Source: an uncultured Bacteroidales bacterium
GTDB lineage: Bacteria; Bacteroidota; Bacteroidia; Bacteroidales; F082
DNA length: 64,000 nt
Reading direction: 5' to 3'
NCBI GenBank assembly: GCA_900317055.1
Contig: ONFF01000011.1
Span: 18,062 to 82,061, forward strand
Shown: piece after piece, positions 11,639 through 62,352 of the stretch
Numbering within the stretch: the stretch's first letter is position 1
How the letters are laid out: every line of letters begins with the position of its first letter
The notes under the pieces: generated by a model
Databases searched by the model: none
The model's input: only the letters and a program-made list of their open reading frames with translations
Told to the model about the DNA's origin: nothing
Position numbers and translations under genes: made by a program

Positions 11639-14600
11639 ATGAAGAAATTTGGTTTACTCACCGCAGCATTCCTGATGATGGGTTTGCTGTTTGGCACGCA
11701 AGCAATGGCTCAGCACATTGAACTCGGCGTGGCCAAGTCGGCACAAAGCTGTGCCAACGTGACTGACGAAGGCTTCACAGCCTCCTTTTCCTTCAGCAGC
11801 ATCGACGCCACTGAAGTCACCACCGAAAAAGGTGTTTTCTCCAACATCACCATCGAAGGTACCTATCCTTCCGGCAATGTAGGCGACCCTTCGCTTCCTG
11901 CCGCTCACCAACTGATTTCTGTTCCTTACGGTGCAAAGATTGCCTCTTTGGAAGTAAAGAGCTACAGCACTACTACTTACAGCCTCGCTGACTACAACAT
12001 TAAAACTGTCATGCCTCAGCAACCTTCTGTTCGCAAGAATCAGAAGCCCGAGGATGTGAAGTTCGTTTACAACGAGAAAGCTTACGCTGCCAAATCGTTC
12101 AACGAGCGTCCCATCGCCACCATGGAGATTAAAGGTACCATGCGCGGCATCCAAGTCGGTTCACTGACCATCAACCCTGTGCAGTACAACCCTTCCACTA
12201 ACAGCATTCGTGTATTCAACAACATCGAGATTGAAGTGCGCTACGACGACTACGACAAATCCGCTGCCTACAACGAATTTGCCCGCACATTCAGCCCCTA
12301 TTTCGCCTCCGTTTACAAGGCCATGTTCAACTGGCGCGACGATGTGTACGACCAGCATCCTGACCTTTGGCAAGCTCCTGTGAAGATGCTCGTCATCGCT
12401 GACCGTATGTTCGAAGAATGCATGCAGGATTGGATTGCATGGAAGACCATGAAGGGCTTCTATATGGATGTGAACTACACCGACCAAATTGGCACTACCG
12501 CCTCTGCTATCCGCAGCTTCATCCAAGGCAAATATGCCGAAGACGCTCCTACCTTCGTCATCATCTTCGGTGACAAGAACCAAGTAGCCGCCAGCGGTAC
12601 GGGTAGTGAGACCCACTGCGTCACCGACTTGCAATACATGAGTGTTGACAACGATGATTTTCCGGACATCTACCACAGCCGTATGTGTGCTGAAAATGTC
12701 CAACAAATGACGAACATCATCACCAAGACGCTTTGGTACGAAAAGCTACAATTCGAAACTCCTATGCGCGACATCAGCTATCTCGGCAATGTGTTACTCA
12801 TTGCTGGCTGGGACGGCTCTTGGAACCCCCGCGTCGGCAAACCCACCATCCAATATGCCATGGAGTATTACTACAACGCCGAACACGGATTCAACAATGT
12901 TTACAACTGGCTTCAACAACCTTACACAGGCTGCTACGCTCCTTTGAACACCGGTGTCGGTTTCGTGAATTACACAGCTCACGGTTCCAACAACAGCTGG
13001 GCTGACCCACAATTCACCGTCAACAATGTGAATGGCCTGACCAATGAGGGCATGCCTTTCTTGGCTATGGGCAACTGCTGTGAGGCTGCCGACTGGGGCA
13101 TCAATGGCACCTGCTTCGGTGAAGCCATGATCCGCAACAATATGGCTGCTGCCTACGCTTACATCGGTTCCTGCCCCAGCACCTATTGGTGGGAGGACTA
13201 CTACTTTGGCGTGGGTGCCACCAATGTGACCAACCGAATGCCCACATACGAAGAGACAGCATACGGTTGCTATGATGCCATCTGGAACGATGATGAATAC
13301 AATTGCGTCTCTGCCATCCCGGTCATCGGCAACCTCGCTGTATGCTATAGCCATGCCAATGGTTACCAAGGCAGTGTTTCGGACAAGTATTACTGGCAAT
13401 CCTACCACGCTCTAGGCGACGGTTCTGTCATGCCTTTCCGCGTGATTCCTACCTCCAACAATGTCAGCCACATGGCCATCTTCCCTATTGGCATGCCTAC
13501 ATACGAAGTGAGCGCTGATCCCGGTTCCTATGTTGCCATCAGCAAGGACGGCGTACTTCATGGTGTCGGTTTGGTTGATGAAAGTGGTGTCATCGTAATT
13601 GATGTTGATCCCGTCACTTCCAGTGGTGATGTCACCATTTGCGTGACTGGTCTCGACAAGATTCCTTATATCGCCACTGTTCCTGCCGCCGCCTTGGAAG
13701 GTCCTTATGTCTCCGTTGACAGCTACACGCCTGCCAATGTTCATGTTGGCGACGAGTCATCAATGAGCATTACCTTCAAGAATGTTGGTTCTTCCGCCAC
13801 CAATGGCACTACCACGGTGTCCTTGAGTTGTAATGACGAGCACCTCACCATTATCGAAGGTACCGGCTCGTTCGAAAGCCTTGAACCCGAAGCTACCGTT
13901 CAAATTAGCGGCTTCAGATACAGCATCGCCGAAGGCGTTCCTGACGGCACTCGCTTCACTATCAACACTACTGCTGTTTGTGGCAACGACACATGGGAAG
14001 GCAGAACCGTCATCACCGCTGGCGAAGCAGTGCTTGAATTTAACGGCTTGACCACTCCTGGAGGTTTCGTCCCTGGTGAAACCATCGCAATAACCGCCTC
14101 ATTCAAGAATACTGGACATTACAAAGCCACCAATGCCATCGCTCACATCGCCTCAACGAGTGATTATGTCAGCTTTGAAAACGACACCTTTGAAGTTGGA
14201 ACACTCGATCCGACGGGAATCGCCACTTGTGTATTCAATGTCACCATCGATGCCGACTGCCCCATGACCGAGCAACTGCCTTTGACTTTCACTCTGAACG
14301 CTGATGGCGATCTCATGGCCGAGGGTACTGGTGTCATAAAGAACGCCTGCAATGTCGTCTTCGAACTCAGCGACTCCTACGGTGATGGTTGGAACGGCAA
14401 CTACCTGAATGTCAGCTTCAGCGATGGTACGCCCGCCCAGAGTCTGACCATTCAAGACGGATCCTCTGCCAATTATGTCATCGAAATCGGCAATGGCGTT
14501 CATGTCACTCTGACCTGGACTATGGGCCAATGGCCTACCGAGTGTTCCTTCGTTGTCCACTATGAGGATGGTGATGTGATTTGCCAAGCATCAAGCCCCA

Positions 14601-15145
14601 ACGGCACTTACTCGTTCGATTTTGACTGCAACTGCGCTGTTGGCGCTCCTGTTGGCAATTTCGACCCCGTAGAGGATCTGCAAGCTGAAGCCACCGAGAC
14701 AGGCGTCACTTTGGCTTGGAATGCTCCTGAGGGTGCCATCAATTACATCATTTACCGTAACGGCATCGAAATCGCCCAGACGACTGAGACCACCTACACC
14801 GACAACATTATCAGCAAAGACGGCTTCTACACTTATTGCATTGTGGCCGAATATGCTGAAGGTGTCTCGGTGCCTGATTGCGTCATCGTTGAATTCCTCG
14901 ATGCCATCATCGAAAATGAAGCTGAATTTGCCATCTATCCCAACCCCGTCAACAACACCTTGTATGTGAGTAGCGGCAACACCGATTTCAGCTACGAGAT
15001 GTTCAACGGCATGGGACAAAAAGTCGCCAGCGGCAATGCCACGGGCAACGCGCAAATCAATGTCAACGACATGACTAAGGGCATCTACTTCCTCCGCCTC
15101 ACCACCGGTACACAAGTGCGCATGGAAAAGGTCGTCGTGGAATAA
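11639..15145 (+). CDS. Gingipain-family (C25) cysteine protease with T9SS sorting domain (copy 2)
   Basis: The 1168-residue protein is a full-length paralogue of copy 1 with the same domain order: signal peptide (MKKFGLLTAAFLMMGLLFGTQAMAQ), propeptide-like domain, C25 domain, CARDB/Ig-like repeats, YGDGWN domain, FN3-like domain and T9SS tail (YPNPVNNTLYVSS ... MTKGIYFLRLT ... MEKVVVE). The catalytic residues are likely His448 in NYTAHG and Cys480/481 in GNCCEAADWG. Its YGDGWN domain (about 915-1010) is almost identical to that of the gene at 16213 although the catalytic domains of those two genes differ strongly, which suggests domain exchange or gene conversion. A strong terminator follows at 15170-15199. 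Confidence 0.9.
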   Translation: MKKFGLLTAAFLMMGLLFGTQAMAQHIELGVAKSAQSCANVTDEGFTASFSFSSIDATEVTTEKGVFSNITIEGTYPSGNVGDPSLPAAHQLISVPYGAKIASLEVKSYSTTTYSLADYNIKTVMPQQPSVRKNQKPEDVKFVYNEKAYAAKSFNERPIATMEIKGTMRGIQVGSLTINPVQYNPSTNSIRVFNNIEIEVRYDDYDKSAAYNEFARTFSPYFASVYKAMFNWRDDVYDQHPDLWQAPVKMLVIADRMFEECMQDWIAWKTMKGFYMDVNYTDQIGTTASAIRSFIQGKYAEDAPTFVIIFGDKNQVAASGTGSETHCVTDLQYMSVDNDDFPDIYHSRMCAENVQQMTNIITKTLWYEKLQFETPMRDISYLGNVLLIAGWDGSWNPRVGKPTIQYAMEYYYNAEHGFNNVYNWLQQPYTGCYAPLNTGVGFVNYTAHGSNNSWADPQFTVNNVNGLTNEGMPFLAMGNCCEAADWGINGTCFGEAMIRNNMAAAYAYIGSCPSTYWWEDYYFGVGATNVTNRMPTYEETAYGCYDAIWNDDEYNCVSAIPVIGNLAVCYSHANGYQGSVSDKYYWQSYHALGDGSVMPFRVIPTSNNVSHMAIFPIGMPTYEVSADPGSYVAISKDGVLHGVGLVDESGVIVIDVDPVTSSGDVTICVTGLDKIPYIATVPAAALEGPYVSVDSYTPANVHVGDESSMSITFKNVGSSATNGTTTVSLSCNDEHLTIIEGTGSFESLEPEATVQISGFRYSIAEGVPDGTRFTINTTAVCGNDTWEGRTVITAGEAVLEFNGLTTPGGFVPGETIAITASFKNTGHYKATNAIAHIASTSDYVSFENDTFEVGTLDPTGIATCVFNVTIDADCPMTEQLPLTFTLNADGDLMAEGTGVIKNACNVVFELSDSYGDGWNGNYLNVSFSDGTPAQSLTIQDGSSANYVIEIGNGVHVTLTWTMGQWPTECSFVVHYEDGDVICQASSPNGTYSFDFDCNCAVGAPVGNFDPVEDLQAEATETGVTLAWNAPEGAINYIIYRNGIEIAQTTETTYTDNIISKDGFYTYCIVAEYAEGVSVPDCVIVEFLDAIIENEAEFAIYPNPVNNTLYVSSGNTDFSYEMFNGMGQKVASGNATGNAQINVNDMTKGIYFLRLTTGTQVRMEKVVVE

Positions 15146-16212: not shown

Positions 16213-19200
16213 ATGAAAAGAGTACTTTTTTCTCTCGTGTTTGTGGCTTTGTCAGCAATGGCATTTGCCCAACAATGGACGAGCCTTGGCAAGAGCACTC
16301 CTTCCAAACCTGAGGTTAAGTTGGTATCGAGCAGCGAACGGCAAATCGTTATCGACTTCTCATTGGGAGGTTTCTATTTGAGCAAGGTGAACACTCCAAA
16401 CGGCGTCCAGCAAATTGTGACCGTCCCTAAGATGGCCTCTATGCTTGAAGCTGCTGCTCCCGATCTTCCACAATTTCCAGTTCCTACCATCATTGGTGAC
16501 CTGGCTGAGATGGAGGTTAATGTCACCAAGAGCAACTTTACGGATTACCAAAATGTTGTAATCGCCCCCTCGAAAGGCAATTTCAGCCGTCAAATCGACC
16601 CTGAAAACGTTCCTTACACCTACGGCGAGATGTACAACAAGAATGCTTTCTATCCTGCCGCTCAAGCCTATCTTGAAACGCCTTACATCCTCCGCGACTT
16701 CCGTGGTCAAAACATCATGGTTCGCCCCTTCGCCTACAATCCGATAACGAAGACCCTTCGCGTGTATCACAACATGACTATTGAGATGCGCAAAGTGAGC
16801 AACAATGGTGTAAACCAGAAGCTGAGCCGCAAGGCCATCCAAAAGATTACCCCTGAAATGGAGGAAGCCTACAATCATCGTTTCATCAACTACACGGAAA
16901 GCACTTCCAAGTACAACTTCATTCAGGACCGTGGCGAGATGCTTGTCATTTGCCCCGACCAGTACATGGAAAGCATGCAACCTTTCGTCGAATGGAAGAA
17001 CCAATCAGGCCGACCCACCACTATCGTAAGCCTCTCAGAAGTGGGTGGCAACAACGACAACCAAATCAAGAATTACATCCGAAACATCTACGATGACCCG
17101 GCACACAACCTTGAGTTCATCCTCCTTGTCGGCGACTATGCCGACCTCACACCTCATTCGATGAGCGGAGGCCGTTCCGACAACTGGTTTGGTCAATTGG
17201 AAGGTAATGACTACTACCTTGAAGCCCTCACTGGCCGTTTTTCGGTGCAAAGCATTAACGATGTGGAAACCCACATTGAGAAAGTGTTGTATTACGAGCG
17301 CGACATGCCTGAAGGCCTCACATGGCTCAACCAAGGCATCGGCATCGGTGCCAACGAAGGCGCTGGCAATGGTCACAATGGCGGCGAAGCCGACTATGTG
17401 CACATCAATTACATCCGCGACACTTTGATGCACTACACCTACGAAAATGTCACGCAACAGTATAGCGGCGTTGGTGGCGGCACAAGTGCCACTGCCATCA
17501 GTGCCGATTTCAATGCAGGTAAGAGCATCTGCAACTATTGCAACCACGGTTCCCAAACAAGCTGGGCTGTTGCCAACTATAGCAACAGCAATGTTAACGC
17601 GTTGGTGAACGACGACAAATGGCCTTTCATTTGGTCCGTTGCATGCAATAATGGTGAGTTTAACGGCAACTGCTTCGGAGAAGCCTGGCTGAGAGCAACC
17701 AACAATTCCACAGGTCGTCCTACCGGCGCTGTTGGTGGTATGTTCAGCTGGATTTCACAACCTTGGGTGCCTCCAATGACAGGTCAAGACGAGATGGTGG
17801 ACATCCTCACCGAATGGAAGCATGAAGACAAGTATTGCCACACTTTCGGTGGTGCTTCGCTGAATGGCAGCATGTACATGCTTGACATGCACCCAAGCGA
17901 CAATGGCGACACACACAACACATGGATTCTTTTCGGCGACCCGAGCCTTATGGTTCGCACCGACAATCCTGTCAGCATGAACATCACTTGCACACCATCG
18001 GTTCTGATGCTTGGCATGAGCGAACTGGAAATCTCTGCCGAAAACACCGCTTACGGTATCGTCACCTTGATGATGGAGGGAGAAGTTATTGCTACTGGTT
18101 CCATCTTTGACGGTGCTTGCAGCCTCAGCTTCCCACCATTGAACACGGTCGGCACGGCAACTCTCACCGTCATAGGCTATAACAAGGTGACTGAAGTCCA
18201 AGCCATGGAAATCCTTCCTGCCGAAGGTCCCTATGTCACTGTGACGGAATACACGCCCACTTTCGCTCCAGTCAATGTGGAGACAAGCCTCTCTCTTAGC
18301 TTCAAGAATGTGGGTGTCGATCCCACTGCAGGCAGCACCAATGTCAACTTAACCTGCAACGATCCTCGTTTGAGCATCATTGACGGCACGGAGACATTCG
18401 ATGTGTTGAACGCTGAAGATACTATCACCCTGCAAAATGCCTTTAGTTTCATCATTTCCGAAGGTGTCGAGGACGAAACCCGTTTCCAAATCGATGTCAA
18501 CATGACCGATGGCAGACAAACCTGGAGTGGAAGGGTCTTTGTCACTGCTGGACAGGCCGTCCTTGAATACGCCAACTCTGAATGGGCAGGCAGTTTCGTG
18601 CCGGGTGAGACAGTAACCATCGTGACCAATTTCAAGAACATTGGACATTACATGGCTACCAATGCTGTTGCCACCATCGCCTGTGAAAGCGAATATGTCA
18701 CCCTTCTCAATCCTAGCGTTGAGTTAGGTACCATCGACCCAGAAGGTATCGTCACTTGTGTGTTCACCATTCAAATCGATGAGAGCTGCCCAGAAACCGA
18801 ACTGATTCCTTTGAGCTTTATGATACAAGCCGATGGTGATCTATCAGCCGAGGGTTCCATCGCCCTGAGGAATTCCTGTAATGTCGTCTTCGCACTCACC
18901 GACTCTTACGGCGACGGTTGGAATGGAAACTACTTGAACGTCAGCTTCAGCGATGGCACTCCCGCACAGCACTTGACCATCCAAGATGGTTCCACCGCCA
19001 ACTATATCATTGAGATTGGCAATGGCGTTCATGTCACTCTGACCTGGACAATGGGCCAATGGCCTACCGAGTGCTCCTTCGTCGTTAGCTATGAGGGTGG
19101 TGATATAATCTGCCAAGCTTCTAGCCCCAATGGCACTTACTCATTCGACTTCGACTGCAACTGCGCCGGCGGACAGACTACCAGCACCTACGACCCTGTC

Positions 19201-19671
19201 GAAAACCTTACTGCCGAAATGGACATGGGAACAATCAAGCTCACATGGGATGAGCCTGAAGGAGCCTTCAACTACATCGTCAAACGCAATGGCATTGAAA
19301 TCGGTAACACAAGAGAGCCTGAGTTTACAGACGAAGTCTTCAACGAGCTTCACTACACCTATTGCATCGTTGCTGAATACCCCGATGGCTTCAGCATTCC
19401 TGAGTGCATCATAGTCAAATCCGAGCTTGGAATTGACGAGCACGAAACAGAGTTTGCCATCTACCCCAACCCGGTCAACAACACATTATACATTAATGGT
19501 GACAATGCCGAGTACAGCTATGCGATGTACAACAGCATGGGTCAGGTAGTAGCCAATGGCAATGCAAAAGGCACTGAACAAATCAGTGTGGAAGGCATGA
19601 CCAAGGGTATCTACTTCCTCCACATCACCTCTGGCACACAAGTGCTCGTGGAAAAGGTTGTTGTGAAGTAA
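16213..19671 (+). CDS. Gingipain-family (C25) cysteine protease with T9SS sorting domain (copy 3)
   Basis: The 1152-residue protein is from a different C25 subgroup than copies 1 and 2, closer to the classical gingipain pattern. After the signal peptide (MKRVLFSLVFVALSAMAFAQ) and propeptide-like domain come LLVGDYAD, EGNDYYLEALTGRFSV (about 330-345), His445 in NYCNHGSQTSW and Cys478 in WSVACNNGEFNGNCFGEAW. Downstream are CARDB/Ig-like domains, a YGDGWN domain nearly identical to copy 2, an FN3-like domain and a T9SS tail (YPNPVNNTLYING ... LVEKVVVK). The predicted role is an extracellular or surface cysteine protease. A hairpin terminator follows at 19693. Confidence 0.9.
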   Translation: MKRVLFSLVFVALSAMAFAQQWTSLGKSTPSKPEVKLVSSSERQIVIDFSLGGFYLSKVNTPNGVQQIVTVPKMASMLEAAAPDLPQFPVPTIIGDLAEMEVNVTKSNFTDYQNVVIAPSKGNFSRQIDPENVPYTYGEMYNKNAFYPAAQAYLETPYILRDFRGQNIMVRPFAYNPITKTLRVYHNMTIEMRKVSNNGVNQKLSRKAIQKITPEMEEAYNHRFINYTESTSKYNFIQDRGEMLVICPDQYMESMQPFVEWKNQSGRPTTIVSLSEVGGNNDNQIKNYIRNIYDDPAHNLEFILLVGDYADLTPHSMSGGRSDNWFGQLEGNDYYLEALTGRFSVQSINDVETHIEKVLYYERDMPEGLTWLNQGIGIGANEGAGNGHNGGEADYVHINYIRDTLMHYTYENVTQQYSGVGGGTSATAISADFNAGKSICNYCNHGSQTSWAVANYSNSNVNALVNDDKWPFIWSVACNNGEFNGNCFGEAWLRATNNSTGRPTGAVGGMFSWISQPWVPPMTGQDEMVDILTEWKHEDKYCHTFGGASLNGSMYMLDMHPSDNGDTHNTWILFGDPSLMVRTDNPVSMNITCTPSVLMLGMSELEISAENTAYGIVTLMMEGEVIATGSIFDGACSLSFPPLNTVGTATLTVIGYNKVTEVQAMEILPAEGPYVTVTEYTPTFAPVNVETSLSLSFKNVGVDPTAGSTNVNLTCNDPRLSIIDGTETFDVLNAEDTITLQNAFSFIISEGVEDETRFQIDVNMTDGRQTWSGRVFVTAGQAVLEYANSEWAGSFVPGETVTIVTNFKNIGHYMATNAVATIACESEYVTLLNPSVELGTIDPEGIVTCVFTIQIDESCPETELIPLSFMIQADGDLSAEGSIALRNSCNVVFALTDSYGDGWNGNYLNVSFSDGTPAQHLTIQDGSTANYIIEIGNGVHVTLTWTMGQWPTECSFVVSYEGGDIICQASSPNGTYSFDFDCNCAGGQTTSTYDPVENLTAEMDMGTIKLTWDEPEGAFNYIVKRNGIEIGNTREPEFTDEVFNELHYTYCIVAEYPDGFSIPECIIVKSELGIDEHETEFAIYPNPVNNTLYINGDNAEYSYAMYNSMGQVVANGNAKGTEQISVEGMTKGIYFLHITSGTQVLVEKVVVK

Positions 19672-53307: not shown

Positions 53308-54498
53308 TTATTTCATTGCATAATTACCCCAATCTTTCCAGGAAACATAATCGATTCCATTGATGGAGAGGGTTAAGTCGCCAAGGTAGAAAACTGCACC
53401 ACGGCAGCCGTCGTTGCCACGAAGTGCGAGGTAGTCGCGCGTGTTTTTTGAGAGGTTTTGCTCGGCTTCGATAGTGCTTTTGATTTCGATGGCGAAGGTG
53501 TGTTTCCAGTCGGCGATGGTGTCCACCTCAAAGCCTTTTTGGTCGCGGTAGAAGGTCAAGTTGGGTTGCTTGCCCAAGTTCAGCCTGTTTTTAAGCATTT
53601 CAGCGATGGCAAAACTCTCTATGATGGCTCCTTTGTATTCGCTGAGAATCAGTTCCTCGACGGACTCAACGCGGAGCAAGTGGCAAAGCAGTCCCGAATC
53701 TATAAAATACAACTTGGGTGTTTTCACCAACGACTTGCCAAGGTTTTGGGTGTCTGGTTCTAATAAGTGGATGATGAAAGACGACTCCAGGATAGAGAGC
53801 CATTGTTTGACGGTTGGGGCCGAAACACCGATGCCACGAGCAATGCTGTCCATCGAGAGCATTTGTCCACTATAAGTGGCGCAGATTTGGATGAACTTCT
53901 TGAATACGGACAAGTTGCTATAGTTGATCTGACTCTCTACATCCAAATCAAGGTAGGTGTCTACATAGCTGTTGAACCAGTCATCGACCGTAAAGTGCTT
54001 GGCCGAATCATACAAAGGCGGATAGCATCCTTTGAAAATCATCTCATACACATTTGAACCCAACAGGTTGCCGTTTTTGAGCTCGCCGATGGAAAATGGG
54101 AGAAGTTTCAAAAAGGCGGCGCGACCCGCCAGCGAGTCGGTCATATTCTGCTTCAAGTTGAACTGGTTGGATCCTGTAAGAATAAACTTGCCTGGCGTGA
54201 AAGCGTTTTGGTCAATGTGGTATTTGACTGCATCAAAAATCTCTGGAACCTTTTGCGCCTCATCGATGATGGCGCCGTCGGGGAAGGCCAATAGGAAATC
54301 CGTTGGATTGGCAGCGGCCAACTCGCGGATGTTCTTGTCGTCGAACGAGATGTAACGTTTCTCGGGAAATGCCATCTTTGCGAGGGTCGTTTTTCCGCTT
54401 TGCCGCGGTCCTGTGATTCCAACTACAGCGAATTGCGAGGCGAGTCTTAATAAGGCATCTTTGGCAGTTCTCTCTATCATTCTTTCATTTTTTTTCAT
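53308..54498 (-). CDS. AAA_14/DUF4143 ATPase with repeat-flanked promoter
   Basis: The 396-residue protein has a P-loop (VGITGPRQSGKTTLAKMAF), Walker B-like GAIIDEAQKVPEIFDAV, the sensor-like FILTGSNQFNLKQNMTDSLAGRAAFLKLLPFS, and a DUF4143 half with SGQMLSMDSIARGIGVSAPTVKQWLSILESSFIIHLL and the nuclease-like GFEVDTIADWKHTFAIEIKST. This is the full version of the family seen partially at 1-887. The function is unknown. The ATG at 54498 would leave a leader of only ~5 nt from the predicted promoter, so the internal ATG at 54480 (MIERTAKDALLRL) is an equally good start. Three perfect 22-bp tandem repeats lie directly upstream of its -7 box. Confidence 0.88.
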   Translation of the reverse strand: MKKNERMIERTAKDALLRLASQFAVVGITGPRQSGKTTLAKMAFPEKRYISFDDKNIRELAAANPTDFLLAFPDGAIIDEAQKVPEIFDAVKYHIDQNAFTPGKFILTGSNQFNLKQNMTDSLAGRAAFLKLLPFSIGELKNGNLLGSNVYEMIFKGCYPPLYDSAKHFTVDDWFNSYVDTYLDLDVESQINYSNLSVFKKFIQICATYSGQMLSMDSIARGIGVSAPTVKQWLSILESSFIIHLLEPDTQNLGKSLVKTPKLYFIDSGLLCHLLRVESVEELILSEYKGAIIESFAIAEMLKNRLNLGKQPNLTFYRDQKGFEVDTIADWKHTFAIEIKSTIEAEQNLSKNTRDYLALRGNDGCRGAVFYLGDLTLSINGIDYVSWKDWGNYAMK

Positions 54499-55846: not shown

Positions 55847-56656
55847 TTAAATATTCAGCTTCAGCTGTATCTCCTCCACCTGCCGTTTCAGTTCTTGAAC
55901 GGTTTTGACAAGTTCTTCCTCGCGGAAACGGTTTTCGCGCTGTTCGGGCATCTCCGCACTAATGTAATGCACGAATTTCCACACCTCTTTGATGTCGGCA
56001 GCTGGCAAGTCGTATGGATGATAAAGCGGGTTGAGCGAACTAAGCGTGAGTTTACTTTCATGCTCAATTTTATTTTCCACGATTTTGAAGACAATACCAT
56101 CGTCCTGCGTAAGCACAATGTAAGGCTGGCCGCTGCGAATGTAGGTCCAGTCGAGGACATATTCACCTGTAACATAAGAACCATCGGGAATGGGCAACAT
56201 CGAGTCGCCGCTGATTTGGAAGGTGCGGTATTTGCGGTCACGCGAGAGGAAGGGCATGGTGAATGTCGGCAGCACCTTGATGTATTCGGGGTCGGCGAAG
56301 CCCGTGGCATAGCCCGCCTTAGCCTTTTCGGTCACGAGTTCGATGTTCTCGTCATTGTCGTTGTTGACCGTAGTGGCCAACACACGCAAATTACTGCCTT
56401 TCAGGTGCACATCGTAGCCGCGTTCCAGTTGCAGTAGTTGGCTTGGGCTGATGGTGCTCAAGTCTACTTTCACCAAAGTGTCAATGGCGATGCCGAAATA
56501 TTTCGAGAAGGCAACCAAGGCTTCAAGGTTGGGCTCAGACACACCATTTTCATAGCCACTCAGCGTGGAACGCTTCATTTGCAGGGCAAAAGCCACATCG
56601 TCCTGCGTACGGTTACGATGCTTGCGCAAAAATTTTATGTTCGAATTGAAATACAT
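55847..56656 (-). CDS. Self-cleaving S24/LexA-like regulator (Xre HTH + peptidase S24)
   Basis: The protein has 269 residues from the ATG at 56656 (MYFNSNIKFLRKHRNRTQDD). Domains: an Xre-type helix-turn-helix (about 5-62: TQDDVAFALQMKRSTLSGYENGVSEP), a linker, a likely Ala114-Gly115 autocleavage site in KAKAGYATGF, and a LexA/UmuD-like S24 peptidase with Ser152 (SGDSMLPIPDGSYV) and Lys191 (IVFKIVENK). A C-terminal coiled coil (about 238-269) may mediate dimerisation. By analogy with CI/LexA it would be inactivated on RecA filaments after DNA damage. It is divergent from dinB, and the shared intergenic region contains the dyad at 56756-56776. Confidence 0.88.
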   Translation of the reverse strand: MYFNSNIKFLRKHRNRTQDDVAFALQMKRSTLSGYENGVSEPNLEALVAFSKYFGIAIDTLVKVDLSTISPSQLLQLERGYDVHLKGSNLRVLATTVNNDNDENIELVTEKAKAGYATGFADPEYIKVLPTFTMPFLSRDRKYRTFQISGDSMLPIPDGSYVTGEYVLDWTYIRSGQPYIVLTQDDGIVFKIVENKIEHESKLTLSSLNPLYHPYDLPAADIKEVWKFVHYISAEMPEQRENRFREEELVKTVQELKRQVEEIQLKLNI

Positions 56657-56724
56657 GATATTGTGGAATTTAAAATTCAAAATTCAAGATTTAAAAATTT
56701 TCTCTGCTTTTTTATATGCTGTTT

Positions 56725-56732
56725 CAAATATA
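56725..56732 (-). promoter_or_regulatory. -7 element TATATTTG for the S24 regulator gene
   Basis: On the minus strand TATATTTG is an exact TAnnTTTG, 69 bp before the regulator ATG. Its -33 region (about 56750) directly adjoins the dyad at 56756-56776. Confidence 0.55.
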
Positions 56733-56755
56733 ATGATTAGTTTTAAGGCGAAATT

Positions 56756-56776
56756 TTTGATTAAAAACTCGTCAAA
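56756..56776 (+). promoter_or_regulatory. Candidate S24-regulator operator upstream of dinB
   Basis: TTTGATTA - AAAAC - TCGTCAAA: the outer TTTGA/TCAAA half-sites are perfect inverses and the inner two positions diverge. It lies within a 23-bp block (56747-56769) repeated identically upstream of dnaE at 59398-59420. Confidence 0.65.
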
Positions 56777-56830
56777 AGTACGACTTTTTTGGAACATGCA
56801 AGCATTTTGGGCAAAAAAGGAGGAAATTTT

Positions 56831-57967
56831 ATGGAAAGGACGATTTTGCATTTGGATTTGGACACCTTTTTCGTTTCGGTGGAACGGTTGGTGAACCCAT
56901 CGCTGGAAGGCAAGCCCGTCATCGTGGGCGGCATGTCGGACCGCGGCGTGGTGTCGACATGCAGTTATGAGGCAAGAAAGTTTGGCGTACACTCGGCCAT
57001 GCCCATGCGCATGGCACGACAGCTTTGCGGGCAGGCCGTGTTCATCCGTGGCGACATGGAACTCTACAGCCGCTATTCGCGCCTGGTGACCAACATCATC
57101 GCCGACAGCGCGCCCGTCTACGAGAAGATGTCCATCGATGAGCATTACTTAGACTTGACGGGAATGGACCGTTTCCACGACTGTCAGCTGTGGTCGCATG
57201 AACTTCGGCAAAAGATCATCAAGGAGACAGGCCTCCCGATTTCGTTTGGGCTATCGGAAAACAAGACCGTCGCAAAAATTGCCACAGGGCAAGCCAAGCC
57301 CAACGGCGAGTTAGAGGTGCCTACACCTTATATTAATATGTTCCTCGACCCGCTGCCAGTGCAGAAAATCCCGATGGTGGGCGAAAAGACCTATGCCCTA
57401 CTCCGTTCGATGGGTGTGGAGAAAATTGGCACTTTGCGCCGACTGCCACCTTTGGCCATGGAACGCGCCATGGGCAAGCACGGCCTCGACATTTGGAAGA
57501 AGGCCAACGGGCAAGACAGCACGCCCGTGTGCCCTTACCAAGAACGGAAATCCATCAGCAAGGAACGCACTTTCGAACAAGACACCATTGATGTGACGAA
57601 CATCAAGCAATGCCTTGCGCGGATGGTAGAGAGCCTCGGTTTCGACCTGCGCTCGCAACACAAGCTGACGGGCTGCGTGACGGTGAAAATCCGCTATTCC
57701 AACTTCGACACACACGACATGCAGCAACGCATCCCCTACACTGCCTTCGACCATGTGCTGCGCGAAACAGTGAACGGCATCTTCGACCGCCTCTACAATC
57801 GAAGGATGATGATACGGCTTGTAGGTGTACGCCTCAGCGAACTAGTCAGCGGGGCACCGCAACTGGCCTTGTTTGACGATAACACCGAGCTGACAAACCT
57901 CTATTCCGCCATGGACAAAATCAAAATGCGGTTTGGGGAACAAATCATACATCGGGCTGCGGGATGA
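56831..57967 (+). CDS. dinB: Y-family DNA polymerase (DinB/Pol IV type)
   Basis: The 378-residue protein starts at the ATG at 56831, preceded 8 nt upstream by a clear GGAGG, rare in this window. Palm motifs: LHLDLDTFFVSVERLVNPSLEGKPVIVGG (first Asp), SYEARKFGVHSAMPMRMA, and YEKMSIDEHYLDLTGM (catalytic Asp-Glu, with His in the place of the usual Ala). The HhH region (IPMVGEKTYALLRSMGVEKIGTLRRL) and little-finger domain follow. It performs error-prone translesion synthesis. With the S24 regulator and the DnaE-type polymerase it forms a probable inducible mutagenesis cassette. Confidence 0.92.
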   Translation: MERTILHLDLDTFFVSVERLVNPSLEGKPVIVGGMSDRGVVSTCSYEARKFGVHSAMPMRMARQLCGQAVFIRGDMELYSRYSRLVTNIIADSAPVYEKMSIDEHYLDLTGMDRFHDCQLWSHELRQKIIKETGLPISFGLSENKTVAKIATGQAKPNGELEVPTPYINMFLDPLPVQKIPMVGEKTYALLRSMGVEKIGTLRRLPPLAMERAMGKHGLDIWKKANGQDSTPVCPYQERKSISKERTFEQDTIDVTNIKQCLARMVESLGFDLRSQHKLTGCVTVKIRYSNFDTHDMQQRIPYTAFDHVLRETVNGIFDRLYNRRMMIRLVGVRLSELVSGAPQLALFDDNTELTNLYSAMDKIKMRFGEQIIHRAAG

Positions 57968-57972
57968 TATTT

Positions 57973-58004
57973 TTTGTTTTATTAAATAGAAATTTATAAA
58001 TTTG
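57973..58004 (+). promoter_or_regulatory. Strong promoter of the ATPase gene inside the polymerase cassette (TTTG - 20 bp - TAAATTTG)
   Basis: TTTG at 57973-57976 and TAAATTTG at 57997-58004 are separated by 20 bp, the best match to the Bacteroidetes consensus in this window. It starts only 6 bp after the dinB stop codon and indicates independent transcription of the ATPase gene. Confidence 0.75.
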
Positions 58005-58039
58005 CAGCGTTTTTTAAGTTTGAATTTAATAAAATCACC

Positions 58040-59323
58040 ATGGCTATAGCAAGAAACATTTTAAAACAAGTGCTTCTCGATAATCAAAAAGACATAGAGA
58101 AATATAATGTCTTTCCTCGCAATTACGACCTCGACAGCTTCCCGTTGCAGGTGTTTGTGGGGGTAAGACGCTCAGGCAAGTCGTTTCTCCTGTTTCAGAA
58201 GATAAGGCAGATGCTCGATGAAGGGCATCACTGGGACGAGATGCTCTATCTTGACTTTGAGGATAGTCGTCTTGAAGGCTTTGCGGCAGAGGATTTCAAT
58301 CTCATCCTCGAATGTCATCAGGAGATGTATGGCAAGCGACCCATGCTGTTTCTTGATGAAACACAAAACATTGAAGGATGGCAAAAGTTCGCCCGCAATC
58401 TTGCCGATAAGAAATACAGCGTATTCATTACTGGTAGCAATGCCAAAATGTTGTCCAAGGAAATCATGGCCGAGCTTGGAGGGCGTTATCTACCAGTGGA
58501 GGTCTATCCATTCAGCTTTGCGGAATATCTTTCTTTCATACAAGTGCCATTCGATACGCTAGCATTGACGGCCACGGAGTCGAGGGCTAGATTCATGAAG
58601 GCATATAATGATTACTTCGTTTGGGGCGGACTTCCCGAGTCAATCCCTTTGCCCGTAAAAAGGCACTACCTTTCCAGTGTGTTCCAAAAGATATATCTCG
58701 GCGACATTGCACAACGCAACGGCATCTCCAATTCCCGACTGCTTCAGCTGATGGTCAAGAAAATGGCTGAAAGTGTCAAGCAGCCAGTGTCTTACAATCG
58801 CATTGCGAAAATTCTCTCCAGCATATCGGGCAAGATTAGTGTGCCTACCGTGGCGAGTTATATCGGTTATTCCGAAGATGCCTGGCTGTTGCTACGTTTA
58901 AGGAACATAGCCTCGGCATTTGCAGAAAAGGAAAGCGTTTGCAAATACTATTTCATCGACAATGGGATCCTTTCGTTACAACTGATGGATGGCGAAACCG
59001 ACTTGTTGGAGAATCTAGTGGCGTTGTCTCTATTCCGGAAATACGGACACGACCTTGACAATGACCGTGTCTATTTTTATCATGCCAATGTCGAGGTTGA
59101 TTTCTATGTGCCAGAGGATGAACTCGCCGTGCAAGTCGCCTATTCATTGGCCGATCCAGAAACAGCCGAACGAGAGATCGGTGCCATTACCAAACTCACC
59201 CACCTTTATCCTTGTCGCCGACGTATCATCGTAACCTACGACGAGGAAGGCACCCTGACTGACCAATACGGCAATATTGATGTGATTCCTTGTTGGAAGT
59301 GGCTGCTGAAAGACATCAAGTAG
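58040..59323 (+). CDS. AAA_14/DUF4143 ATPase located between dinB and dnaE
   Basis: The 427-residue protein has a P-loop (VFVGVRRSGKSFLLFQKI), Walker B-like RPMLFLDETQNIEGWQKF, a sensor YSVFITGSNAKMLSKEIMAELGGRYLPVEVYPFSFAEYL, a DUF4143-type winged region (KISVPTVASYIGYSEDAWLLLRL) and a nuclease-like end (YFYHANVEVDFYVPEDELAVQVAYSL). It is a full-length family member but diverged from the one at 53308. It has its own promoter, no tandem repeats, and lies between two genes that share an operator, so it looks inserted. The cellular role is unknown. Confidence 0.88.
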   Translation: MAIARNILKQVLLDNQKDIEKYNVFPRNYDLDSFPLQVFVGVRRSGKSFLLFQKIRQMLDEGHHWDEMLYLDFEDSRLEGFAAEDFNLILECHQEMYGKRPMLFLDETQNIEGWQKFARNLADKKYSVFITGSNAKMLSKEIMAELGGRYLPVEVYPFSFAEYLSFIQVPFDTLALTATESRARFMKAYNDYFVWGGLPESIPLPVKRHYLSSVFQKIYLGDIAQRNGISNSRLLQLMVKKMAESVKQPVSYNRIAKILSSISGKISVPTVASYIGYSEDAWLLLRLRNIASAFAEKESVCKYYFIDNGILSLQLMDGETDLLENLVALSLFRKYGHDLDNDRVYFYHANVEVDFYVPEDELAVQVAYSLADPETAEREIGAITKLTHLYPCRRRIIVTYDEEGTLTDQYGNIDVIPCWKWLLKDIK

Positions 59324-59406
59324 CCCCTCGGCATATTGGTTTTGTAAAGAAAGATTTCAATACTAACTTCCATTCCAAAAACTTTGATTAAATTTACGGC
59401 GAAATT

Positions 59407-59427
59407 TTTGATTAAAAACTAATCAAA
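59407..59427 (+). promoter_or_regulatory. Candidate S24-regulator operator upstream of dnaE
   Basis: TTTGATTA - AAAAC - TAATCAAA is a perfect 8+8-bp dyad. It lies in the 23-bp block (59398-59420) identical to 56747-56769. A further half-site CTTTGATTA is at 59382-59390. TAGTTTTG (59429-59436) directly follows and fits a -7 element, with TTTG of the dyad 18 bp before it. Confidence 0.7.
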
Positions 59428-59433
59428 GTAGTT

Positions 59434-62352
59434 TTGTTAATCGCCGTCCATTCATATAACAGCCTGTGCTACGGCACGATGCCGATTGCGGACTTGGTCA
59501 CGAAGGCCGCCGCGATGGGCTATGTTGTCTTACCTTTGACCGACATCAACACGACGATGGGCGTTGCCGATTTCGTGGTGGAATGTCAAAGAAAAGGCAT
59601 TCGGCCTGTCGTGGGCGTGGAGGTGCGCAACGGCAATGAGCTGCTCTATGTGGCCTTGGCAAAAAACAACGCAGGCTTCGCCGAACTGAACCGCTTTTTG
59701 ACCCATCATAACCTCACTAAACAGCCTTTCCCCGAAATCGCACCCGATTGGGAACAGGTCTTTGTCATTTATCCCTTCGGGAAACGAAAGCAGAACTCGT
59801 TGAAAAATAATGAGTTTATCGGTGTTCGATTTTCCCAATTGACCAAATTGTACAACTGCGAATCCTTTGAGAAGCTGGTCGCCATGCAACCTGTCACCGT
59901 TGCCGAAGAAGGCGATTTTCAATTGCATCAGTGCATGAGAGCCATTGACGAGAATGTGCTGATTTCGCGATTGGAGCCAGCCGCTTGTGCCGCTCCCGAC
60001 GAGATTCTTTTGCCTGCCGAAAGGCTAAAAACGACTTTTGCACTTTACCCACAACTCATTGAAAATGCAGAGCGTATCTTGAATGAATGCGAAATCAACT
60101 TGGATGCAGATGTGAAAAACAAACGCACATATACGGGCAATGTCTATGACGATCGGGAACTGTTACGCCAAAAAGCCTTTGAAGGAATGATTTATCGTTA
60201 TGGGACGAGAAGCAAGAATGCCTACCGTCGTATCGAGAAGGAACTCGACATCATTGAGAAGATGGGCTTTTGCGCTTATTTTCTTATAGCCTGGGACATC
60301 GTGTGTTTCGCTATGAAGCAGGGCTTCTACCATGTCGGGCGAGGCAGCGGAGCCAATAGTGTAGTAGCTTATTGCCTGAAAATCACCGATGTGGATCCAA
60401 TTGAATTGGACTTGTACTTTGAGCGTTTCCTGAACCCCAAGCGGAGCAGTCCTCCCGACTTTGACCTTGATTTTTCGTGGAAGGATAAGGACCAAGTCAT
60501 CGCCTACATTTTCAATAAATACGGTAAGGAATATGTGGCATTGCTCGGCGCGACGGTCACTTTCCAAAGCAATTCGCTTTGTCGCGAACTGGGCAAAGTG
60601 TTCGGCCTGCCCAAAGGCGAAATCGACCTGATGGAACGCAACCCCGAGGCTTTCGCCCGACAGAGCGAAATTGGGCAGCAGATTCTGGCCATTGCCGAGC
60701 GCCTCCGCGACTTTCCGCGCCAGCGTTCCATCCACGCTGGTGGCGTGTTGATTACGGAAGAACCGATTACCAACTATGCCGCACTCGACCTGCCACCCAA
60801 GGGCTTTCCAACCACGCAATACGATATGTATTCCGCCGAAAAAGTTGGACTTATCAAAATTGACATCCTCAGCCAGCGCGGCATCGCCCATATTCGAGAT
60901 GCCGTGGAGGTGGTGGAACGCAGTCGGGGAGTGCGCATTGACATTCACCAAATTAACGCATTAAAACAAGACGAACTGATTCGTCGCCAATTGCTTAAAG
61001 CCGAGACCTGCGGCTGTTTTTACATCGAGAGTCCGGCTATGCGCGGATTATTGCGCAAGTTGCGCTGCAGCGACTACAAAACTTTGGTCGCAGCCAGTTC
61101 CATCATCAGGCCAGGTGTGGCCAAATCGGGCATGATGCGCGAATACATCAACCGCTTCCATCATCCTGAAACTGTAGACTATAAGCATCCCGTTTTGAAA
61201 GAACTTTTGGCAGAGACTTACGGTGTGATGATTTACCAGGAAGATGTTTTGAAGGTCGGGCATTATTTTGCAGGCTTAGACTTGGCAGAGGCCGATGTGT
61301 TGCGCCGCATGATGGGTCACAAGATGCGTGACAAATCTGAATTTGAAGAGGTTACGAAACGCTTCTTCGACAATTGCAAAGCCAAGGGTTACCCTGATGA
61401 CTTGGTGCGTGAGCTTTGGCGACAGATTGAGTCGTTTTCGGGGTATTCATTCTCCAAGGCGCACTCGGCCTCATACGCGGTGGAGAGTTACCAAAGCCTC
61501 TATCTGAAAAGCCATTATCCGCTTGAGTTTCAGGTGGCTGTGATTAACAATTTCGGTGGGTTCTACCAAACTTGGTTCTACTTCAACGAGGCGCGGCGCA
61601 TGGGGGCAAAGATCCATCTGCCTTGCGTCAATCGCAGCGATTACCTCACCACTTTGAATGGTCGGACGATTTTCATGGGCTTTGTGCATTTGCAAGGCAT
61701 TGAACAACAATTTGTAGAACGATTCGTTGCCGAGCGCAAGGCTCACGGGCCTTTCACCAGTTTGGAAAATTTCATTGCGCGTGTGCCGTTTTCGTTGGAA
61801 CAACTCGTGTTGCTCATTCGTGGCGGTGCGTTCAGTTTCACGAAAAAAACTAAAGCTGAACTTCTATGGCAGGCGCATCTCAACAAAAGCGATGGCAAGA
61901 AAGAACAGCCCGAAACACTTTTTGAACTTGAGAACCAACACTTTGAGTTCCCGAGTTTTTCCGTCAATGCTTTGCAGAACGCTTACGATGAGATTGAACT
62001 ATACGGTTTTCCTGTCTCTTTGACTTGGTTCGACTTGTTGAAGACCAAGTTCCGTGGTGAGTTGATGGCCTCTCAGATGCTGCATTTTGTAGGGAGTCAT
62101 TACAGGATGTTAGGCAAATTGGTCACAGTGAAATATGTGCGTACCTGCAAAGGCGACACAATGGCGCTGGGCACCTTTGTCGATGTCACGGGTGAGGCTT
62201 TCGACACGGTGCATTTTCCACAAGTACTCAAAGCGTGGCCTTTTCAGGGCGACGGCGTGTATTTGCTTTTGGGCAAAGTTACCGAGGAATTTGGGCAACC
62301 ATCGTTGGAAGTCGAAAAAATGGGAAGGTTGGAATATAAGGAATTAGGATAA
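59434..62352 (+). CDS. dnaE: DnaE-type DNA polymerase III alpha subunit, short error-prone form
   Basis: The 972-residue polymerase is shorter than replicative DnaE (about 1150-1250). The N-terminal PHP-like domain (LIAVHSYNSLCYGTMPIADLVTKAAAMGY) seems to have lost most metal ligands. The polymerase core has GFCAYFLIAWDIVCFAM, HVGRGSGANSVVAYCLKITDVDP, the catalytic PPDFDLDFSWKDKDQVIAYIF and a tandem HhH region; the C-terminal tau- and beta-binding parts are reduced. This resembles DnaE2/ImuC-type polymerases. The only start that keeps the HSYNSL motif is TTG at 59434; the first ATG is 59479. If the TAGTTTTG at 59429 is the -7 box, the TTG would precede the transcript start, so the start codon remains uncertain. 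Confidence 0.88.
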   Translation: MLIAVHSYNSLCYGTMPIADLVTKAAAMGYVVLPLTDINTTMGVADFVVECQRKGIRPVVGVEVRNGNELLYVALAKNNAGFAELNRFLTHHNLTKQPFPEIAPDWEQVFVIYPFGKRKQNSLKNNEFIGVRFSQLTKLYNCESFEKLVAMQPVTVAEEGDFQLHQCMRAIDENVLISRLEPAACAAPDEILLPAERLKTTFALYPQLIENAERILNECEINLDADVKNKRTYTGNVYDDRELLRQKAFEGMIYRYGTRSKNAYRRIEKELDIIEKMGFCAYFLIAWDIVCFAMKQGFYHVGRGSGANSVVAYCLKITDVDPIELDLYFERFLNPKRSSPPDFDLDFSWKDKDQVIAYIFNKYGKEYVALLGATVTFQSNSLCRELGKVFGLPKGEIDLMERNPEAFARQSEIGQQILAIAERLRDFPRQRSIHAGGVLITEEPITNYAALDLPPKGFPTTQYDMYSAEKVGLIKIDILSQRGIAHIRDAVEVVERSRGVRIDIHQINALKQDELIRRQLLKAETCGCFYIESPAMRGLLRKLRCSDYKTLVAASSIIRPGVAKSGMMREYINRFHHPETVDYKHPVLKELLAETYGVMIYQEDVLKVGHYFAGLDLAEADVLRRMMGHKMRDKSEFEEVTKRFFDNCKAKGYPDDLVRELWRQIESFSGYSFSKAHSASYAVESYQSLYLKSHYPLEFQVAVINNFGGFYQTWFYFNEARRMGAKIHLPCVNRSDYLTTLNGRTIFMGFVHLQGIEQQFVERFVAERKAHGPFTSLENFIARVPFSLEQLVLLIRGGAFSFTKKTKAELLWQAHLNKSDGKKEQPETLFELENQHFEFPSFSVNALQNAYDEIELYGFPVSLTWFDLLKTKFRGELMASQMLHFVGSHYRMLGKLVTVKYVRTCKGDTMALGTFVDVTGEAFDTVHFPQVLKAWPFQGDGVYLLLGKVTEEFGQPSLEVEKMGRLEYKELG

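Follow-up and report, generated by a model that had tools for sequence, protein, structure and literature searches.

A putative further operator group of LexA-like S24 repressors at a dinB/dnaE cassette of Bacteroidales

The S24/HTH_3 repressors of Bacteroidetes have been described as non-canonical LexA proteins with the operators CTAA-N5-TTAG and GGA-N5-TCC (Sanchez-Osuna et al. 2021, PMC8565304). According to the accessible text of that paper, their network includes dinB, often together with a DNA polymerase III alpha gene, and both ortholog groups were absent from Bacteroidales in a survey that used complete genomes and BLASTP cut-offs, which could account for orthologs of this order having been missed. 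Here, we describe an S24 repressor gene that lies divergent from dinB, with dnaE further downstream, in a 64,000-nucleotide stretch from an uncultured Bacteroidales bacterium (GenBank assembly GCA_900317055.1, contig ONFF01000011.1, positions 18,062 to 82,061; hereafter the window, in whose coordinates all positions are given). Our reading, to which we assign a probability of about 0.85, is that the S24 protein is a Bacteroidetes-type non-canonical LexA with a new operator, [A/T][A/T]TGATTA-N5-TAATCAAA (O2), often accompanied by a second palindrome (O1) 23 bp upstream, and that it represses dinB and dnaE until DNA damage relieves the repression. The protein is best read as representing a new operator-specificity group of a family of which both groups described so far were reported missing from Bacteroidales. 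This suggests that an order reported to lack such regulators has a DNA-damage response.

The repressor and its predicted operator

The S24 repressor gene (55850-56656, minus strand) encodes 269 amino acids with HTH_3 (PF01381, E 1.7e-15) and Peptidase_S24 domains; its Ala114-Gly115 cleavage site, Ser152 and Lys191 were invariant in 15 orthologs, and the Ala-Gly site and Ser/Lys dyad were present at 100% in the 59 proteins of its group (the window's S24 set). On the plus strand follow dinB (56831-57967), which encodes a 378-amino-acid Y-family polymerase (IMS, IMS_C), and, beyond an inserted cargo gene, dnaE (59434-62352), which encodes a 972-amino-acid C-family polymerase (PHP, DNA_pol3_alpha, finger and HHH_6 domains) from a TTG start that, by eye, aligns with the starts of other orthologs. 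These Pfam domains confirmed the S24, Y-family and DnaE assignments of an earlier interpretation made from the letters alone (the sequence-only reading).

That reading had also reported an identical 23-bp block and a dyad before each polymerase gene, and both descriptions proved exact. The block, GGCGAAATTTTTGATTAAAAACT, occurs at 56747-56769 and, before dnaE, at 59398-59420, and identity between the two copies ends at both block edges; it is not the sole repeat, as 45 different 23-mers recur on the plus strand of the window, the six among the matches listed all coming from one other pair near 14489/19018. The predicted operator O2 of dnaE (59407-59427, TTTGATTAAAAACTAATCAAA) is a perfect TTTGATTA-N5-TAATCAAA that ends 6 bp before the TTG start, and that of dinB (56756-56776, TTTGATTAAAAACTCGTCAAA), with 2 mismatches, lies 99 bp before the S24 start and 54 bp before the dinB start. 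Each dyad is preceded, 24 bp upstream, by a further, degenerate copy of the palindrome (O1) that the sequence-only reading had not mentioned, at 56732-56752 for dinB (8/12 core letters) and at 59383-59403 for dnaE (7/12).

The sequence-only reading had named absence of the dyad from orthologous cassettes as a refuting condition. We examined 54 loci belonging to other families of the order (those among 72 fetched with an S24 protein of ≥55% identity), using the S24-dinB interval or, for loci without a dinB match, 350 bp upstream of S24. TTTGATTA-N5-TAATCAAA was found without mismatch in 10, with ≤1 mismatch in 19 and with ≤2 in 38, compared to ≤2 mismatches in 0.09% of block-shuffled stretches. 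A profile of the 49 best sites, which keeps loci with ≥12/16 letters and thereby selects for O2 itself and not for O1, revealed a second palindrome, TGATTA-TATTG-TAATC, 23 bp upstream. Scores of ≥10/12 were reached at 23 bp upstream in 28 of the 49, one base further upstream in 3 and at 23 bp downstream in 5, and, besides the site itself, at no other of the 125 offsets; the O1-O2 distance is thus 23 bp in most order-wide sites, as against 24 bp in the window. An exact 21-mer search of 198 genomes of the order returned one occurrence each in 17 and none in the reversed control. In eleven of the 17 the 21-mer precedes S24 by 33-175 bp, and in the window's genome it is the dnaE site. The copy in G180 shares its contig with a fragment of S24, and those in G168, G185, G227 and G237 are at other places (labels in L and G denote loci and genomes of the comparison sets). 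By these comparisons the dyad is a conserved operator, presumably bound by the S24 protein, and its conservation in orthologous cassettes supports the proposal that a dinB/dnaE mutagenesis module is accompanied by an S24 repressor with an operator of its own.

The operator is also linked to the presence of the S24 gene. Among 45 genomes of the genus, the strict site (TTTGATTAAAAACNNNTCAAA with ≤1 mismatch, between S24 and dinB or before recA) was present in 35 of the 37 with a full-length S24 ortholog and in 0 of the 8 without one, of which G106 has a match to the helix-turn-helix (HTH) domain only. The two exceptions, G060 and G092, carry weaker sites beside S24, with 2 and 4 mismatches, respectively.

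In a tree of 107 S24 homologs, all from the phylum (a quick method, leaving 42 of 104 forks open), the window's protein grouped with other sequences of its order. With groups set by locus number, so that L189-L195, near the clade in the tree, were counted as elsewhere, a strict GATTA motif was found upstream of 31/59 members of the window's S24 set vs 0/47 others, and CTAA-N5-TTAG upstream of 14/22 members of the CTAA set vs 0/59 of the window's set. The recognition-helix region reads mostly K-R-S-T-L-S-G-Y-E-N in the window's set vs K-R-S-[LVM]-[IV]-G-[AS]-Y-E-E in the CTAA set, and the half-sites TTTGATTA and TTTGCTAA (L198) differ at two positions. One genome, G182, carries both a window-group and a CTAA-group S24 gene (L184 and L197).

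Orthologs with E <1e-90 were found in 68 of the 198 order genomes, the window's included (59 of them fetched, two being those of the window and of a family member, and seven left out), and in the window's family 100 of 119 genomes matched at E <0.001, mostly with one full-length copy and in a few cases with partial or HTH-only matches. The best 80 named records carried Bacteroidales, Bacteroidia or Bacteroidetes in their titles; many came from gut samples of ruminants or horses, and one was Candidatus Limimorpha caballi; solved structures matched over the HTH end only. We considered a prophage or plasmid repressor and rejected it: phage records reached ≤32% identity over 81% of the query, plasmids ≤42%, and viral contigs gave 4 weak relatives (27-34%). 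A chromosomal regulator is the preferred assignment from these matches.

recA and the rest of the genome

The sequence-only reading had proposed a genome-wide search for the looser pattern TTTGA-N11-TCAAA, especially before recA and lexA. In the window, 0.23 occurrences were expected, and two were reached by 2 of 100 shuffles. The whole genome of the window (3.5 Mb, 32 contigs) contains 17 places, compared to 4 in a reversed control; of the 15 fetched, nine lie inside open frames of ≥330 amino acids, L010 inside a 98-amino-acid frame, L005, L006 and L011 between larger frames, and the remaining two are the cassette sites. Most of these places being inside open frames, the loose pattern recovers the cassette and by itself defines no regulon. 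A wide regulon was likewise not supported by TTTGATTA-N5-TAATCAAA with ≤3 mismatches (43 places vs 25 in the reversed control). The third near-perfect site of this genome (L006) precedes unrelated-looking genes, and among 18 loci outside the cassette and recA that were read by eye, several sites were inside open frames and none was directly before an evident repair gene.

lexA can be ruled out as a target, because no LexA DNA-binding domain (LexA_DNA_bind, PF01726) exceeded the Pfam cut-off in this genome, where the best match scored 23.0 vs 23.7 bits in a 385-amino-acid frame, and because the repressor carries the only S24 domain over the cut-off. A further S24-like stretch, at G000:C11:133430-133624 (L362) in a 161-amino-acid frame, scored 22.0 vs a cut-off of 23.3 bits.

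recA gave a different picture in a sister clade of the genus, comprising 18 genomes with S24 proteins of 65-75% identity. A strict operator precedes recA in 14 of them, weaker sites (3-4 mismatches to the consensus) were found in G076, G092 and G116, and no operator was found before recA of G060. TTTG serves as the Bacteroides -33 element. In 16/16 site-bearing recA promoters examined (the 14 strict ones of the sister clade plus G318 and G319), the operator starts 10-11 bp after TTTG-N18/19-TAnnTTTG, of which TAnnTTTG is the Bacteroides -7 consensus (PMC4747536). By eye and by analogy with these promoters, possible -7 boxes lie on the plus strand at 56738-56745 for dinB (TAGTTTTA) and 59389-59396 for dnaE (TAAATTTA), each 10 bp before O2; no good -33 box was evident by eye at either gene.

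The dnaE operator and the dinB-dnaE slot

The cargo gene between dinB and dnaE (58040-59323, plus strand), absent from the sequence-only description, encodes 427 amino acids with AAA_14 and DUF4143 domains, and its best PADLOC model is PDC-S01 (E 1.6e-93). In L057-L102, the stretch between dinB and dnaE forms a variable cargo slot that measures 0 to ~7 kb and whose genes differ by strain. Among the slot proteins scanned (ten in one library and ten in PADLOC, a part of the whole), we found AAA_14/DUF4143 (PDC-S01), AbiLi with AbiLii, YhcG-like (PDC-S02), Schlafen AlbA_2, an AAA-ATPase with a PDDEXK domain, PAD_porph and patatin.

Usable dinB and dnaE genes were present in 54 of 80 named loci, of which 38, with S24 proteins of ≥80% identity, form the window's own clade. 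Counting dnaE as detached when >250 bp from dinB, and a dnaE operator as ≤3 mismatches, the own clade had a dnaE operator in 21 of 22 detached loci vs 0 of 16 adjacent ones (Fisher 7.6e-10), and the 54 loci together in 21/26 vs 1/28; for adjacent loci the search covered the gap alone, and in L103 and L113 dnaE overlaps dinB, leaving no gap to search. On a dnaE tree of 39 rows (the 38 own-clade loci and the window), well-supported branches require ≥10 changes of arrangement, and the operator tracked arrangement in 9 of 10 independent pairs with none opposed (p 0.004); the same test gave 7.6 of 8 on the S24 tree (p 0.008) and 5.9 of 6 on the dinB tree (p 0.03). The nearest kin of the window (L058-L060) have adjacent dinB and dnaE and no dnaE operator. 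Either selection for control or recombination that exchanges the block as a whole would fit this pattern.

Other loci showed further arrangements. L106, L110, L112 and L121 have S24 without a dinB or dnaE match across ~10 kb upstream, as do L105, L107 and L108 within the 2-3.5 kb upstream that they span. On the far side of the window's S24 gene, 53308-54498 encodes a second ATPase that by eye resembles the AAA_14/DUF4143 type. Elsewhere in the window, two 300-nt pairs of direct repeats (68 and 72%) connect 14102-15126 with 18631-19652, ~4.5 kb apart and perhaps two related genes, and the exact 23-mers common to 14489 and 19018 fall within them.

Mechanism, alternatives and comparison with known systems

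In an undamaged cell, a dimer of the S24 protein would occupy O2 close to the transcription start and O1 across the -7 box, and block initiation, thereby repressing dinB and dnaE; the S24 gene would probably be repressed as well. Once DNA is damaged, RecA filaments on it would stimulate self-cleavage at Ala114-Gly115 through the Ser152/Lys191 dyad, repression would drop, and the two polymerases would be made, perhaps to act in a RecA-linked mutasome. Where cargo separates dinB from dnaE, the operator of dnaE itself would hold both genes under the same control, and in the sister clade recA would belong to the same regulon.

Several observations weigh against this reading, for which the support is wholly computational. 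The dinB site of the window is imperfect and its O1 copy is degenerate; 16 of the 54 order loci have ≥3 mismatches to TTTGATTA-N5-TAATCAAA, and among more distant named loci only 13 of 32 have ≤3. In loci where the S24-dinB gap is ~1 kb (L071, L083, L087, L102) the operator stays with dinB, which weakens the case for autoregulation there. At recA, where the sequence-only reading had proposed to look for the dyad, an operator precedes the gene in the sister clade but not in the window's own genome; the strict site was likewise found before recA in 0 of 17 own-clade genomes with a found recA. Among 50 other S24-bearing genomes of the order, the exact core preceded recA in L393 alone. On the 21-mer, 3 mismatches were reached by two (controls 1/24, shuffles 0/50) and 4 mismatches by twelve (controls 1/24, shuffles 3/50); one S24-bearing row, L406, spanned only 106 bases. 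We thus rejected recA as a general order-wide member and kept it for the sister clade. Given this rarity, the predicted regulon outside that clade would be little more than S24-dinB-dnaE; functional SOS networks without recA are mentioned in the accessible text of PMC13148647.

These points leave room for alternative explanations. Another transcription factor might bind the dyad, with the S24 protein acting elsewhere or as a UmuD-like partner of the polymerase, and this would suit the fact that binding by the S24 protein is something we infer, as well as loci such as L106, L110, L112 and L121 in which no dinB/dnaE match lies near S24. We consider it very unlikely, since the S24 protein has an HTH_3 domain of its own and the sites vanish with its gene (35/37 vs 0/8), track membership of the S24 set in the tree and are also present at recA, which is unlinked, in the same genomes. 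Scarcely more credible is a dinB/dnaE switch that answers a signal other than DNA damage, its cleavage residues being kept for other reasons. Damage induction is also something we infer, and most of the lineages examined have a regulon that does not include recA; against this, the Ala-Gly, Ser and Lys residues of RecA-stimulated S24 proteins are kept throughout the set, recA belongs to the sister-clade regulon, and an Elizabethkingia relative is induced by mitomycin C, as is the error-prone polymerase gene divergent from it (accessible text of PMC8565304).

A separate question is why dnaE has a copy of the operator, which does not touch the status of the operator itself. The copy could be a passive by-product, with cargo and operator exchanged as a block by recombination and the correlation with detachment reflecting linkage and not selection. 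The adjacent arrangement of the nearest kin, which lack the copy, the many changes of arrangement required on the dnaE tree and the identity of the 23-bp block at dnaE with that at dinB all agree with such an exchange; the cargo genes, however, vary widely across loci while the operator stays, and we regard the by-product explanation as possible but the less probable one. Considerably more speculative, and in our view improbable, is an extension of the damage-relieved repressor model in which a TGATTA-N5-TAATCA LexA class would control the response to damage in a large part of Bacteroidales, the defence-type genes of the slot (AbiL, PDC-S01, YhcG-like) would be co-induced by damage from behind dinB, and dnaE would keep its own operator so that control would survive a reloading of the slot.

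Bacteroidales are major gut bacteria. An ortholog is present in 68 of 198 genomes of the order, and the precise predicted operator is readily testable by gel shift. The third, related operator specificity (half-sites TTTGATTA vs TTTGCTAA) offers material on how LexA-type repressors may shift their binding site, and the 21 of 22 detached dnaE loci of the own clade form a natural series in which the operator is present when a target gene has been separated from its operon. For Bacteroides fragilis, the accessible text of a 2010 study stated that an SOS-like response was not known at that time (PMC3025348). Among the papers listed by our literature searches, most subscription papers being outside their reach, we found no report of a TGATTA-N5-TAATCA operator or of this S24 regulator for Bacteroidales.

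Among systems built on error-prone polymerases, the cassette is distinct from lexA-imuA-imuB-dnaE2, as the sequence-only reading had held: no imuA-like gene lies between S24 and dnaE (a genome-wide imuA search was not made), and by eye DinB retains HLDLD and SIDE, unlike an inactive Y-family ImuB. The putative DnaE2B-PolY-RecA mutasome (PMC6511836, PMC12926913) is similar in combining an active Y-family polymerase with a DnaE2-type polymerase in the absence of ImuA, with the reservation that the window's DnaE is classed only as C-family; the accessible texts describe this pair from the polymerase side, without an S24 regulator. The C-terminal IKMRFGEQIIHR of the window's DinB resembles IEKSFGKGSIMR of RecA with a score of 25 (shuffles: mean 21.5, max 38), and a RecA-NT-like pattern of our own devising was found in 34 of 65 DinB orthologs. 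UmuDAb of Acinetobacter likewise represses error-prone polymerases in an organism without LexA, but is derived from UmuD, whereas the window's protein has an HTH_3 DNA-binding domain (accessible text of PMC11332147).

S24 relatives also occur on plasmids of Runella, Dyadobacter and Chryseobacterium (L433, L434, L435). The Chryseobacterium shandongense plasmid NZ_CP033916.1 has S24 (35% identical), dinB and dnaE in the same divergent arrangement, with an N5 palindrome, TGTCAT-AAATT-ATGACA, between S24 and dinB; it differs in its half-site, its plasmid location and the adjacency of dinB and dnaE. On the Dyadobacter plasmid, the neighbours of the S24 relative are imuA, a Y-family gene and a gene for an error-prone polymerase. 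Two of the three plasmid gaps contain other N5 palindromes (TGATAC-N5-GTATCA and TGTCAT-N5-ATGACA), so that half-sites vary while the spacer is constant.

The closest comparison is with the non-canonical LexA proteins as described in the accessible text of PMC8565304. Both combine HTH_3 and S24 domains with an Ala-Gly site, a Ser/Lys dyad, a palindrome with a 5-bp spacer and dinB in the network, and the Elizabethkingia site TTAC-N5-GTAA, opposite an error-prone polymerase gene, is a diverged palindrome of the same build. The second operator 23 bp upstream in most sites of the window's group has a parallel in promoters with two or more motif instances, of which several were described. The claim that the regulon is LexA-independent stands for canonical LexA, as PF01726 was not among the Pfam matches of the S24 protein, and does not stand for LexA in the wider sense, S24/HTH_3 repressors being the published non-canonical family. 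The window's protein is a member of neither named group: neither CTAA-N5-TTAG nor GGA-N5-TCC occurs in its S24-dinB gap, its operator is TGATTA-N5-TAATCA instead, and it belongs to a separate clade with an altered recognition-helix region, in Bacteroidales. With HTH_3, an S24 domain with Ala-Gly and Ser/Lys, and an N5 palindrome in the promoter region (2 mismatches in the window), we assign it, from these predicted features, to a further group within the non-canonical LexA family of Bacteroidetes.

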